The position numbers and the translations under genes were made by a program. The notes beneath the pieces were generated by a model that was given only the letters and a program-made list of their open reading frames with translations, was not told where the DNA came from and made no database searches. From Ruminococcus sp. (GTDB taxonomy: Bacteria > Bacillota > Clostridia > Oscillospirales > Ruminococcaceae): DNA of 60,788 bases. The stretch covers positions 1 to 60,788 of the forward strand of contig JALCDN010000002.1 in assembly GCA_022641595.1 (NCBI GenBank), given 5' to 3'. Below, piece by piece: positions 41,262-60,788 of the stretch (positions are counted from its first letter, which is position 1; each line of letters begins with the position of its first letter).

Positions 41262-41969
41262 ATGGCTACACCACATAACAGTGCCGAATACGGCGATATC
41301 GCCGAAACCGTCCTCATGCCCGGCGACCCGCTCAGAGCTGAGTTTATCGCCGAAAATTACCTCGAAAACCCCGTTTGCTATAACAAAGTCCGTGGTATGC
41401 TCGGCTTTACAGGAACATACAAAGGCAAAAAAATCTCCGTTCAGGGAAGCGGTATGGGAATGCCTTCAATCGGCATTTATTCCCATGAGCTTTTTAACCT
41501 GTACGGAGTCGAAAATATTATCAGAGTTGGCACGGCCGGTGCTATTGCCGACTTTGTAAAGCTTCGTGATGTCGTTATCGCCCAAAGTGCAAGCACTAAT
41601 TCCAATTACGCTGCACAATACGCTTTGCCCGGTACTTATGCACCAACGGCTTCGTATAAGCTGCTTGCAGAGGCTGTAAGTGCCGCAAAGAAATCAGGAG
41701 CTGACTTTCACGTCGGAAATATTCTTTCAAGCGACACCTTCTACGATGACAGCCAAAGTACTGCAAAATGGCAGAAAATGAACGTACTTGCTGTTGAAAT
41801 GGAGTCCGCTGCACTATATATGAACGCCGCAAGAGCTTCAAAGAACGCACTCTGCATTCTTACCGTCTCGGACTGCCCACTTAAAGGACTTTCAACCTCG
41901 GCTCAGGAGCGTCAGACCACGTTCAAAGCAATGATGGAAATTGCACTCGAAACCGCTGTCAATATATAA
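41262..41969 (+). CDS. deoD: purine nucleoside phosphorylase, DeoD type
   Basis: A 235-aa cytoplasmic enzyme that releases purine bases from nucleosides with phosphate. Family motifs include VLMPGDPLRAEFIAENYLE, SVQGSGMGMPSIGIYSHEL, IIRVGTAGAI, VEMESAALY and the Asp-containing TVSDCPLKG. It forms hexamers in known members. The start at 41262 follows AAAAGGAG. No terminator is seen before the small-RNA promoter 20 bp downstream, so read-through into the sRNA units is possible. Confidence 0.95.
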   Translation: MATPHNSAEYGDIAETVLMPGDPLRAEFIAENYLENPVCYNKVRGMLGFTGTYKGKKISVQGSGMGMPSIGIYSHELFNLYGVENIIRVGTAGAIADFVKLRDVVIAQSASTNSNYAAQYALPGTYAPTASYKLLAEAVSAAKKSGADFHVGNILSSDTFYDDSQSTAKWQKMNVLAVEMESAALYMNAARASKNALCILTVSDCPLKGLSTSAQERQTTFKAMMEIALETAVNI

Positions 41970-41990: not shown

Positions 41991-42023
41991 TTTAAGATTA
42001 TTTTAAGACTGATGAAATATAAT
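41991..42023 (+). promoter_or_regulatory. CiaR-like direct repeat and -10 box of sRNA unit 1
   Basis: TTTAAG (41991-41996), ATTAT, TTTAAG (42002-42007), then exactly 10 nt before TATAAT (42018-42023). There is no -35 hexamer at the normal distance, so activation by an OmpR-family regulator bound to the direct repeat is likely. The same arrangement precedes unit 2. Confidence 0.8.
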
Positions 42024-42029
42024 AATAAT

Positions 42030-42148
42030 CGGATTAAGGAAACCCTGAAAGTCGTTCGATTAAAGAGTTGCCTTGAGTAATCCCCCCAATTCCCCCTCTG
42101 ATTTTATTTTATTTTTAAACCGTGTTTGTATTCATGCACGGTTTTTTT
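42030..42148 (+). ncRNA. csRNA-like small RNA, unit 1 (long form)
   Basis: Predicted transcript of about 119 nt. A 5' stem-loop pairs GGATTA with TAATCC across a 38-nt segment that unit 2 lacks. An unpaired region follows (AATCCCCCCAATTCCCCC, then TCTGATTTTATTTTATTTTT), and an intrinsic terminator (AAACCGTG/CACGGTTT, then a T run) ends it. No start codon with a ribosome site lies inside. The two-hairpin, C-rich middle plan matches the csRNAs of streptococci. This is a prediction from sequence only. Confidence 0.7.
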
Positions 42149-42233
42149 ATTGCTCAGATTGTGAATAATCAAAATGATTTGCTATAAATTTGATTGCTAC
42201 ACTATACAATAAAATTTCCAAAAATCTTTAATT

Positions 42234-42266
42234 TTTAAGATTATTTTAAGACAAATGAAATATAAT
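42234..42266 (+). promoter_or_regulatory. CiaR-like direct repeat and -10 box of sRNA unit 2
   Basis: TTTAAG (42234-42239), ATTAT, TTTAAG (42245-42250), 10 nt, TATAAT (42261-42266). Box, spacer and distance are identical to unit 1, although flanking sequence upstream differs. Confidence 0.8.
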
Positions 42267-42272
42267 AATAAT

Positions 42273-42353
42273 CGGATTAAGGTAATCCCCCCAATTCCCC
42301 CTCTGATTTTATTTTATTTTTAAACCGTGTTTGTATTCATGCACGGTTTTTTT
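42273..42353 (+). ncRNA. csRNA-like small RNA, unit 2 (short form)
   Basis: Predicted transcript of about 81 nt. The 5' hairpin is compact (GGATTA-AGG-TAATCC), followed by the same C-rich single-stranded region and the same terminator hairpin with a T run as unit 1. The two units look like a tandem duplication of promoter, RNA and terminator. The C-rich middle could bind G-rich ribosome sites. Confidence 0.72.
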
Positions 42354-42368
42354 ATTGCCATTAGTGTT

Positions 42369-42659: not shown

Positions 42660-45326
42660 TTATGCTACAGGAAGAGCCTTTACCGAACCTAAAACATACT
42701 GCTGAATTGTAACAGCGTCCTGAGCGTTCAAACCGTTTGAGCTTCCCTGAACGTCTGCATTTTTAACTCCCTGAGCGGTAAGCGGATATTTTACGGAATT
42801 TATAGCGTAACGTCTTACAGCAACAACATCTGAAATGTCGACTTTGCCATCGCAGTTAGCGTCACCGTAAACAACGCCTGCACCTGAAGTTGTAGGCTGT
42901 ACTGTAGTAGATTGTGCTGTAGTAGGCTGAGTTGTAGGATTTGGTGAATCTGAAGCAATTTTACCATAAACGATACCTGCACCGACAGTACTCATATAAA
43001 CAGTACCAAAAGTATTCATATCGCCTACAAGGAAGTTACCATTACCTGTACCGCCATACTGGTAGTCGGAGTTAATGAGAACCCATGTCTTACCTGAATC
43101 CTGTGAGCGGTAAACGCCCTCTTTATCGTTTTCAAAAGGCTTGCCCCACATATAAAGTGTATTAACGTCGCCCTTCTTTTCAGGAGCGCCGTAGCCTATT
43201 GACTTGCAGTAGAAAACGTTGAGTTTTTCGACATTTTTGCCTGAACCTGTAACGTGATAAGCACCATAGTATCCTGCTCCGACAACGAGGTTATCCTCAC
43301 CGAGGTAAGCTATTCTGCCGCAGCTGTCGCACTGGTCGTACTTAGCAATCTGAGTACCTGTGAAAGTTTTGCCGTAGTCCGTGCTGACGTAGAGAGTGTA
43401 GTTAGCGTCTGAGAGCTCAGCTTCTTTCTTTGAATAGAACCAAGAAGAATTGTAATAAGTAGCGTAAGCGTAAACAACGTTAGGCTTATTAGTTTCAACG
43501 AGCATCTGTGTAGTTTTTGAGCCATAATTCGAAGCAATACCTGTGCAAGCAGTCCATGTTGCACCGAAGTCGTCTGAATATTTAACATCGCCGCTGTCTT
43601 TTTCGCTCTTGAATATACGGTATTTGCCGTCGCTGATTTCAGTGATAGCAGCCTTACCGCCTGCTGAGCAAGACATTTTAGTCCATGTAGTGCCTGCATC
43701 GAGTGAGTAGAAACCTGAAGCTGTGTCGTTCTGATTTTCGGCTACACGAACCATAACCTTAGGATTCTGAGGGCAGTAAGCGATAGCTGAAGTTGAGCCC
43801 ATATTTGGAACATACTGAACACCCGGCTGGTCAACGTCGGAGTGAATGAAACCGTCGTAGTCGCCGATAGCGGAGTAAGCCTTGCCGCCCGGAACGCTTG
43901 TCATATCAAGAGCAACGACTTCCTCGATGCCCTTTGCGTGGAAAGTAGCCTCAGGGTCATCAGTCCAGATTTTGTCCCACTTAAATACGCCGTTACCGGA
44001 AGTAACCAAAGCTCTTGTAGGGTCTTTAGGGTCAAGGACGATAGATCCTGACCAGTGGATAGCCTTACCCCTGATCCAGCTGCAGCCGCCGTCATTAAGG
44101 TAATCGTAGAGCTGTTCCTGAACCATTTCGCCGGTGTCTTTATTCCACTTATACTCGCCCATTTTACCTGGGTAGATAGTAGTCCATGTAGTACCGCCGT
44201 CTTCTGAACGATAGAGCCATTCGCCCCAGCAGGTGCTGTCCTTGCTCCAGCTCTGACTGCTCCATACAGCACAGGTAGTAGCGATAAGTTCGTTTGCGTT
44301 ATCAGGAGCACTTACGCAAGCACCGAAGCTGTTGTTTACAGGTGAAATGTTAGTAGTTTTGCCTGTTTTCGGGTCGTACTTATAAACGCCGCCGGAGCCG
44401 TTTCCGAATGCAAGACCTGCAACGTATGTAATGAGAAGATTTCCATTGCAGTCCTGATTGATTCTTGATGGAAAAACGGTAGTCGGAAGGTCTGCACTGA
44501 GGGTTGTGAAGTTATCCGAGCCGACATCTGCAACAGCTACGTTTGCAACGCCTGTTATTGAAGTAGCAACATAAACTTTACCATTATAGATGCGGATAGA
44601 TGCTACACCGTTCTGAGTATTGTAAGCACCATCGCTTACAGCATTGACCATATGGTCTGTCCATGTAGGCCATTTGATTGAGTTTTTGAAGTAGCCGAGC
44701 TTACCGTAGCCGCTTACCTGAGACCATGTTTTGCCGCCGTCCTTAGACATAATGAGAGCGGAATCGCCTGTGCAGACATCGCCGCCACAGTAGATTATAT
44801 TTGGGTTATCAGGGTCAACAGCGATAGACTCACCGCAATGACGACCGTCGCCGTTACCCATAACCTGAATCATATCAGTAACGTCGACCTCAGAGAAAGT
44901 TTTGCCGCCGTCGGTAGTACGCAGAATAGAAGTTTTTGCGTTGCTGAAGTAAGCACAGCCGCAGAGGAAGTAAGCGGTATTGTCGTCTGTAGGGTCAATA
45001 GCCATAGCGTCTACGCTGAGCAGACCTCTGTCAGCCTCGGTAATAAAAGCCATAAGCTGGTCCCATGATTGTGTCTGATAGTTATACTTGTAAGCGCCGC
45101 CGACGTCTGTGCGGGCATACATAGCACTTTTGCCTGTAACTATGCCTGAAACGAAACCGCCGCCTGAAATCTGAACTGCACCCCAGTTCATAGTATCGGT
45201 AGCGGAAGTCGAAGATTCAGCAGCGTCTGCGAAGTCAGCGGATTTGAGAGAGGGAACAAACGAAAATCCTGTAACTGCCAGACAAGCTGCTGTAATAACA
45301 GAAACTGCCTTTGATCTGAAATTCAT
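42660..45326 (-). CDS. secreted GH74 xyloglucanase with type I dockerin
   Basis: An 888-aa secreted enzyme. Signal peptide (AVSVITAACLAVTGFSFVPSLKSADFADA), then a GH74 catalytic region of two beta-propellers (about 40-780) starting WGAVQISGGGFVSGIV and the catalytic-Asp motif YARTDVGGAYKY. Many BNR-type repeats (S-x-D-x-G-x-x-W) are visible. A Thr/Gln/Pro linker (about 785-815) leads to a dockerin with duplicated Ca-binding loops (DANCDGKVDISDVVAVRRY and ADVQGSSNGLNAQDAVTIQQY). It would cut xyloglucan backbones and bind a cohesin-bearing scaffold. No cohesin or scaffoldin gene lies in the window. Confidence 0.93.
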   Translation of the reverse strand: MNFRSKAVSVITAACLAVTGFSFVPSLKSADFADAAESSTSATDTMNWGAVQISGGGFVSGIVTGKSAMYARTDVGGAYKYNYQTQSWDQLMAFITEADRGLLSVDAMAIDPTDDNTAYFLCGCAYFSNAKTSILRTTDGGKTFSEVDVTDMIQVMGNGDGRHCGESIAVDPDNPNIIYCGGDVCTGDSALIMSKDGGKTWSQVSGYGKLGYFKNSIKWPTWTDHMVNAVSDGAYNTQNGVASIRIYNGKVYVATSITGVANVAVADVGSDNFTTLSADLPTTVFPSRINQDCNGNLLITYVAGLAFGNGSGGVYKYDPKTGKTTNISPVNNSFGACVSAPDNANELIATTCAVWSSQSWSKDSTCWGEWLYRSEDGGTTWTTIYPGKMGEYKWNKDTGEMVQEQLYDYLNDGGCSWIRGKAIHWSGSIVLDPKDPTRALVTSGNGVFKWDKIWTDDPEATFHAKGIEEVVALDMTSVPGGKAYSAIGDYDGFIHSDVDQPGVQYVPNMGSTSAIAYCPQNPKVMVRVAENQNDTASGFYSLDAGTTWTKMSCSAGGKAAITEISDGKYRIFKSEKDSGDVKYSDDFGATWTACTGIASNYGSKTTQMLVETNKPNVVYAYATYYNSSWFYSKKEAELSDANYTLYVSTDYGKTFTGTQIAKYDQCDSCGRIAYLGEDNLVVGAGYYGAYHVTGSGKNVEKLNVFYCKSIGYGAPEKKGDVNTLYMWGKPFENDKEGVYRSQDSGKTWVLINSDYQYGGTGNGNFLVGDMNTFGTVYMSTVGAGIVYGKIASDSPNPTTQPTTAQSTTVQPTTSGAGVVYGDANCDGKVDISDVVAVRRYAINSVKYPLTAQGVKNADVQGSSNGLNAQDAVTIQQYVLGSVKALPVA

Positions 45327-45363
45327 TATCAGCACTCCTTTTAAAAATTTTCCATGTATAAAT

Positions 45364-45392
45364 ATTGTAACATATTGCACATAAAAAGTCAA
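45364..45392 (-). promoter_or_regulatory. promoter of the GH74-dockerin gene
   Basis: On the minus strand TTGACT (45387-45392), 17 bp, TACAAT (45364-45369). Confidence 0.75.
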
Positions 45393-45477
45393 TGAGGGTT
45401 GCAGATTATTAACATTTTGTTCAAATGAGAAATCATATGAGTTCACATTTTCTCATATCAACAGCAAAGTATATGTA

Positions 45478-60060: not shown

Positions 60061-60302
60061 ACTTCTCACCCCTCATAAATAAAAATCCGTAGCAAAAGAA
60101 GGCATACAGATTTTCTTTTCGGGCATTCTGGAATCCGAATAAATGATTTACAAAAGTCGGCTTCATCATTGCCCTGTTAAATTAATTTTAACACAGCTTT
60201 CAAATTTAGTCAACAACTTAGCTATCATACTTGAAAAAATCGTTAACTTGCACAAAAAAGCGGCTTCAAATTTTAACGCTGAAAATTTTCGTTTACGCAA
60301 TT

Positions 60303-60334
60303 TTTAAGCTTATTTCAATAAAACGTGTTATAAT
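60303..60334 (+). promoter_or_regulatory. degenerate CiaR-like box and -10 of the response regulator gene
   Basis: TTTAAG (60303-60308), CTTAT, TTCAAT (60314-60319), then 9 nt to TATAAT (60329-60334). There is no -35 at the normal distance (AAGCTT there). It resembles the boxes at 41991 and 42234, with two changes in the second half-site. The rest of the 60061-60431 gap shows nothing clear. Confidence 0.55.
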
Positions 60335-60431: not shown

Positions 60432-60788
60432 ATGAGATTACTTGTTGTTGAAGATGAAACTCAGCTTGCCGACGCTCTTACCGAAATTCTTAAGCGTAAC
60501 AAATATTTTGTTGACACAGCATACGACGGCATAGACGGACTTGATTGTGCGCTTTCCGATGTCTATGACTGCATTTTGCTCGACATTATGCTGCCGGGTA
60601 TGAACGGTATGGAAATTCTTAAAAGACTTCGCTCTGCCAAAATCTCAACGCCTGTTCTGCTGCTTACCGCAAGAAGCGAAATTGACGACAAAATTAACGG
60701 ACTTGACTGCGGTGCTGATGATTACCTCACAAAGCCGTTCATAACCGGTGAGCTTCTTGCCCGTATCCGTGCCTTGACAAGACGTAAA
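60432..60788 (+). CDS. OmpR-family response regulator (cut by window end)
   Basis: The first 119 residues are visible, covering the whole receiver domain: acidic pocket VVEDE, phospho-acceptor Asp in ILLDIMLPGMNG, Thr in LLLTARSE and Lys in YLTKPF, ending in ELLARIRALTRR. That ending is typical of regulators with an OmpR winged-helix output domain, which lies outside the window along with the expected sensor kinase. The ribosome site is G-rich (GGGGATTG). The promoter box suggests autoregulation. Confidence 0.93.
   Translation, partial: MRLLVVEDETQLADALTEILKRNKYFVDTAYDGIDGLDCALSDVYDCILLDIMLPGMNGMEILKRLRSAKISTPVLLLTARSEIDDKINGLDCGADDYLTKPFITGELLARIRALTRRK

Follow-up and report, generated by a model that had tools for sequence, protein, structure and literature searches.

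A predicted small RNA family behind a CiaR-type promoter box in Ruminococcus, and its candidate response regulator

Ruminococcus is a main degrader of plant fibre. The genome of Ruminococcus sp., a bacterium of the rumen and gut, contains what appears to be a small RNA (sRNA) gene in two tandem copies. Both lie in a single stretch of 60,788 nt (the window, i.e. the whole stretch of DNA that was analysed), and each is preceded by a direct repeat resembling that found upstream of the csRNA genes of Streptococcus. An earlier note on this DNA had suggested a possible counterpart of the streptococcal CiaR-csRNA system. The locus raises the questions of whether the units encode a regulatory RNA, which protein reads the repeat, and how far the resemblance to the streptococcal system extends. 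If the answer proposed here is correct, Ruminococcus has a genus-wide regulatory RNA together with a candidate regulator and a promoter code.

The tandem units and their relatives

The elements of the two units are located as follows.

41991..42007, + strand: copy 1, direct-repeat box TTTAAG-ATTAT-TTTAAG (exact match)
42018..42023, + strand: copy 1, -10 element TATAAT, 10 nt downstream of the box
42030..42148, + strand: copy 1, predicted sRNA of ~119 nt (start inferred from the -10 element, end from the T-run)
42067-42149, + strand: copy 1, match to covariance model R1
42082..42096, + strand: copy 1, C-rich stretch CCCCCC-AATT-CCCCC (from the sequence)
42117..42148, + strand: copy 1, terminator hairpin and T7 run (T7 at 42142-42148); the helix covaries across relatives
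42234..42250, + strand: copy 2, direct-repeat box TTTAAG-ATTAT-TTTAAG (exact match)
42261..42266, + strand: copy 2, -10 element TATAAT, exactly 10 nt past the box
42273..42353, + strand: copy 2, predicted sRNA of ~81 nt (start inferred)
42271-42354, + strand: copy 2, match to covariance model R1 (E 7e-11)
42287..42301, + strand: copy 2, C-rich stretch CCCCCC-AATT-CCCCC (from the sequence)
42347-42353, + strand: copy 2, T7 run (from the sequence)

The boxes, the exact 10-nt gaps, the TATAAT elements and the terminator T7 runs described in the earlier note are all present at these positions. If transcription is assumed to begin 7 nt after the -10 element the RNAs would be ~119 and ~81 nt long, reproducing the lengths that had been proposed, and the absence of a coding frame is upheld in that the list of open reading frames of at least 60 aa in the window contains none that overlaps either unit. 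The main difference between the copies is an insert in the hairpin loop of copy 1. The two boxes are the only exact matches to TTTAAG-N5-TTTAAG in the window (zero-mismatch scan), compared with a composition-based expectation of 0.017 per window, or ~1e-5 with TATAAT at exactly 10 nt. Allowing up to 2 mismatches, 14 boxes are observed vs 12.8 by chance. Upstream of the units deoD (identified from sequence) ends at 41969, and the downstream neighbour is a 928-aa open reading frame on the - strand (42660-45446). From its sequence the latter has a signal-like start and a dockerin-like end, and it is perhaps a surface glycosidase.

In the minimum-energy folds of both window copies AAUCGGA is paired with UCUGAUU around a C-rich loop. 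The C-stretch is unpaired in copy 1, and two of its cytosines are paired in copy 2. The proposed 5′ hairpin (GGATTA...TAATCC) is not the minimum-energy form in either window copy; of two relatives folded, GGAUU-AAGU-AAUCC is the minimum-energy form in one and not in the other. We aligned 36 sequences chosen from 72 box-bearing ones, leaving out copies with long inserts (including window copy 1), those with unclear terminators and most near-duplicates. In this alignment 7 of the 9 pairs of the terminator helix have changes on both sides, and the 5′ helix exhibits no covariation. With the structure that was used, pairing is possible in 94.0% of cells, vs 85.2% in shuffles. The 5′ helix is indirectly supported by self-complementary inserts in its loop, identified by eye in window copy 1 and at two further loci (L010 and L073). 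The core GGATTAAG.AATCCCCC.ATTCCCC is nearly invariant in the 36 sequences, and the terminator is variable.

Of 125 genomes from the genus (judged to be Ruminococcus from its named relatives), 108 contain a match to the covariance model R1, as do 60 of the 68 that are of high quality. The search of related genomes suggested in the earlier note reveals a family. There is usually one copy per genome, with two in 11 of the 108. Paired copies are seen elsewhere 78 nt apart (G090:C74:7828-8070) and ~2 kb apart (G005:C142, L106). In an order-level sample, searched using stricter filters that can lose weak matches, R1 matches occur in 3 of 394 genomes, i.e. the genome of the window itself, another of the same genus (G028) and one weak match. 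The last of these (G399; 36 bits, E 4.5e-4) lies outside the genus and was discarded, the part examined containing a terminator-like repeat. BLAST using copy 1 gave matches in 27 of 60 relatives, 26 of them in the same genus with the source genome counted. A pattern leaving out the box, run over named genomes, found 96 loci, 57 of the 80 listed being Ruminococcus; the loci include R. flavefaciens FD-1, 007c and ATCC 19208.

Six chance-level matches to Rfam at a loose threshold, RsaE among them, were rejected. A literature search gave no paper describing such an sRNA in Ruminococcus among the matches listed, one query having matched unrelated words. Judged by sequence, this is an sRNA family that has no match in Rfam at the gathering score (csRNA families included) and that lies under a CiaR-type box in a different class from the streptococci. 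At another locus (L158:1500-1650, G080:C9) a box precedes a predicted RNA that has a hairpin, only one C-run (TCCCCC) and then a terminator, possibly a second, shorter type of sRNA.

The promoter box and a candidate regulator

R1 was run on the 96 pattern loci and the window; up to E 0.1 there are 82 matches, and for 78 of them E is below 1e-4. Upstream sequence was checked for the 76 of these that lie outside the window, and after setting aside three cut by contig ends there were 73 that could be read. A box is present upstream of 72 of these, 68 being exact and 4 having one mismatch; none of the 21 pattern loci with no R1 match below 1e-4 has a box within 60 nt. The box is outside the model, but the training sequences of R1 had been selected for an upstream box, and the model may therefore favour copies that have one. 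The C-rich stretch and the direct repeat are conserved together, the opposite of the separation that the earlier note had named as counter-evidence. The first box is 47-48 nt upstream in 23 of the 73 matches, mostly because there are three half-sites in a row (by eye), and otherwise 36-37 nt. The sole readable match with no box at the usual place (L048) has one ~230 nt further up. That locus (L048:1114 and 1339) belongs to an Oscillospiraceae genome and contains a unit resembling the sRNA; the usual box distance would be 36-48 nt.

The pattern Box-N10-TATNAT occurs in 117 of the 125 genomes of the genus, compared with 3 of 125 for the reversed pattern. It is not absent beyond the genus, since it is found in 23 of the 394 order-level genomes (the source genome and G028 included) vs 3 for the reversed pattern. 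There are four such places in the source genome. Two are the sRNAs, the third is before a VTC and DUF4956 gene pair (C28) and the fourth is before the gene of a dockerin and Cthe_2159 protein (C30). The box in relatives is also found before VTC-like, LTD-domain and GPDPase_memb/GDPD genes; the families were assigned by searches on single examples, and VTC in relatives was named by likeness. A regulator gene at L137 was rejected as box-adjacent, as a short open reading frame and a terminator lie in between (by eye).

A candidate for the protein that reads the box is an OmpR-family response regulator, the gene of which starts in the same window.

60292-60297, + strand: extra half-site-like TTTACG upstream of the regulator promoter box
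60303..60319, + strand: regulator promoter box TTTAAG-CTTAT-TTCAAT (box scan)
60329..60334, + strand: regulator promoter -10 element TATAAT, 9 nt past the box
60432..60788, + strand: CiaR-like response regulator, 5′ part, 119 aa (contig end cuts the gene; Response_reg 102 bits)
G000:C54:15792-16304: piece of the regulator that includes its remainder, residues 52-222 (on another contig of the same genome)

The protein presumably belongs to the QseB/PmrA/CiaR-like group. It falls below every equivalog cut-off in NCBIfam (best RppA, 214 bits vs 250), and its best match among solved structures is 1kgs, 'DNA binding response regulator D'. Some regulator match at 1e-40 is found in 122 of the 125 genus genomes. 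Among the matches listed, an orthologue (at least 73% identity, partial matches being counted as present) is found in 114 of 125 and is not among them for G076, G082, G087, G096, G011, G099, G021, G126, G094, G110 and G130. A kinase gene encoding a long P/T/D-rich stretch lies 3′ of the regulator on contig C54, and a HisKA domain was detected in the G030 kinase, the outer part of which is P/T/D-rich. The kinase that follows the regulator at four loci (L243, L247, L252 and L191) has an unusually long P/T/D-rich stretch between membrane segments (by eye), which is probably disordered.

We note that the regulator gene has the box in its own promoter. Upstream regions, 44 in all, were read in 43 of the 114 orthologue genomes. 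The box with a -10 element at 9-10 nt is present at up to 3 mismatches in 41 of the 43; the exceptions are G148, which has no box, and G117, which reads N. Letter-shuffled controls reach this level in 2 of 880 cases. The second half-site of the promoter box is mostly TTCAA[GT], TTAAAG or TTTAAT, which is why a strict search around 50 regulator loci did not detect it, whereas the search allowing mismatches did. In other genera, 26 homologues at the best-matching loci (50-68% identity) were examined; 7 of them have box and -10 element within 2 mismatches, one exactly, a level reached by 0 of 880 shuffles. The pairing of regulator and box therefore seems older than the sRNA.

CiaR is 80-99% identical among streptococci (PMC3091779), and its recognition helix is given in section 5 of that source as VVEVYVSKVRKKL, with the pattern VVEVY[VI]SK[VI]RKKL. 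The corresponding helix of the candidate, NIEVYISFLRKKL, is identical at 8 of 13 positions with three further V/I/L exchanges; an N in place of V and an F in place of K set it apart from all the CiaR sequences listed, and the comparison is of the helix alone. This is the top score among 40 regulator rows from seven genomes, the next best being 7. Three rows share it, one of them a paralogue (G000:C34); two rows are a single protein, and 10 of 50 regulator loci gave no row.

The pattern of loss is consistent with a functional connection. Of the 68 high-quality genomes, 4 have no strict box and 3 of these also have no regulator (Fisher p 3e-4, ignoring kinship), and sRNA and regulator are associated with p 0.004 (kinship again ignored). 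When all 125 genomes are included there is weak association, with p 0.02 for the box and 0.04 for the sRNA on the same basis. Against a connection, five of the 68 keep the regulator with no sRNA match. One genome (G126) has the sRNA and boxes with no regulator orthologue found, and in another (G145) the regulator with a box in its promoter is accompanied by no strict regulon box.

Possible mechanism and alternative explanations

We think it likely that the two units are genes for trans-acting sRNAs conserved across the genus, activated through the box by a CiaR/PmrA-like regulator and acting by repression of G-rich translation starts by the C-stretch. The response regulator would bind TTTAAG-N5-TTTAAG immediately upstream of the -10 element, and we infer that it activates rather than represses. 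Its targets would be its own operon, including the gene of a membrane histidine kinase, the sRNA genes, and genes of surface or envelope proteins (VTC/DUF4956 and dockerin/Cthe_2159). The RNA of 80-120 nt would begin with a 5′ hairpin, followed by the stretch CCCCC-AAUU-CCCC-UUCU, most of it unpaired, and would end in a terminator. Its C-stretch would most likely pair with G-rich translation-start regions, leading to repression, and the regulator's own mRNA is possibly among the targets, thus providing a brake.

The C-runs can pair with G-rich SDs. A perfect complement of the C-stretch occurs in the source genome only at the two sRNA genes themselves. Matches to the perfect complement are present in 18 further genomes, and were compared with sRNA positions in part. 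The 12-nt extended complement AGAAGGGGAATTH has 27 matches in the genus vs 19 for the reversed control, which is not a clear enrichment, and no gene recurs among the 27 places beyond near-identical pairs (by eye). GGGG precedes the start codon of the regulator in 14 of 36 cases vs 18 of 362 background genes (p 3e-8); the genomes are related, and the excess could result from shared ancestry. When start regions are ranked by duplex energy, the best 5% include 5 of the 36 from the regulator, and the best 10% include 9. AAGGGGAATT is found just before or upstream of the start of two genes near sRNAs (L103:4934 and L128:6802, both - strand), which may be targets in those species only.

These data bear on another reading, in which the RNA is real and driven by the box, and its C-stretch binds a protein (i.e. 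acts as a sponge or decoy) instead of mRNAs. The near-invariance of the stretch in the alignment, the lack of clear enrichment of extended complements and the confinement of perfect complements in the source genome to the sRNA genes would all be explained by this, but the G-rich regulator starts hint at pairing, and on balance we think it rather unlikely. It is distinctly improbable that a different member of the OmpR family reads the box, with the box in the candidate's promoter reflecting cross-control. The paralogue (L193, G000:C34:12504-13166; ~53% identity to the candidate, present in part of the genus) could be the box regulator instead since its recognition helix is identical, and G126 has boxes and sRNA with no orthologue detected. 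Against this, among the matches listed the orthologue greatly outnumbers the paralogue type, and the candidate's promoter box is kept in nearly all of the genomes in which it was sought (41 of 43).

Other explanations concern the nature and ancestry of the units. Mobile repeats of the type considered include RUP and BOX, and the two near-identical tandem copies might be such a repeat, or a promoter-terminator decoy with no RNA function. However, there are 1-2 copies per genome and at 41 of 75 loci deoD is no more than 600 nt away, on which grounds a mobile repeat was rejected; moreover the transcribed core is near-invariant and the terminator covaries. That there is no RNA gene here is scarcely credible. 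We also consider it very unlikely that this is a true homologue of the streptococcal csRNAs under a true CiaR orthologue, whether ancestral or transferred. Such descent would account for the same box at the same distance from TATAAT, the helix identities and the common order of hairpin, open stretch and terminator. But in the samples searched the sRNA is confined to the genus apart from the one weak match, it matches no csRNA family in Rfam, its C-stretch is different, with CAU missing up to the terminator in the window copies, and according to section 5 of PMC3091779 (2010) CiaRH is apparently not found outside streptococci.

Trans-acting sRNAs under the candidate regulator are thus the reading that we prefer. 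As a tentative extension of it, regulator and box may form an older, reusable module that occurs in two distant classes and that other genera of the family have as well, Ruminococcus having recruited a non-homologous C-rich sRNA that brakes its regulator.

Comparison with known systems

Like the Ruminococcus sRNA, RsaE/RoxS (RF01820) has an open, C-rich stretch that presumably base-pairs with start regions, and RsaE is under the control of SrrAB/ResD. The units differ from it in scoring 18.3 (E 1.2) and 15.8 bits against a gathering score of 79. PmrA recognizes direct repeats of the TTAAG type. The PmrA model gives 176 bits for the candidate regulator (cut-off 330) and BasR structures are among its structure matches, although it differs from the PmrA/BasR regulators in reaching no equivalog cut-off.

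The closest comparison is with the csRNAs of Streptococcus. These differ in the class of the host and in that Ruminococcus usually has one copy per genome. They have a complement to the SD and start codon where the Ruminococcus RNA has C-runs, with a family stretch of CCCCC-AAUU-CCCC rather than CCUCC. An anti-AUG CAU is present in 53 of 61 csRNAs (PMC3091779), whereas there is none between the C-stretch and the terminator in either window copy. We have not filed the RNA as a csRNA, because the window copies lack the start-codon complement between C-stretch and terminator, the likeness to csRNAs is one of design and the regulator was compared with CiaR by the helix alone. The csRNA-like counterpart proposed in the earlier note is partly sustained, as to a conserved sRNA family, a box regulon and a regulator with a CiaR-like helix and its own promoter box; the anti-ribosome-site role is hypothetical.

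What is shared is the overall design. The csRNA promoters have the box NTTAAG-N5-TTTAAG, for which a 10-nt spacing was used in the search (PMC3091779), and in both systems it lies 10 nt before TATAAT. Both have a small RNA with an intrinsic terminator and stem-loops around an open stretch (the RNA and its 5′ stem being predicted in Ruminococcus), more than one copy can be present, and the recognition helices of the response regulators resemble each other in the motif (V/I)EVY(V/I)S..RKKL. By analogy the Ruminococcus system would work like CiaR-csRNA. That the Ruminococcus family has this box at this spacing, together with a helix that nearly matches, suggests that regulator-driven sRNAs of such design have more than one origin, or are older than was thought.
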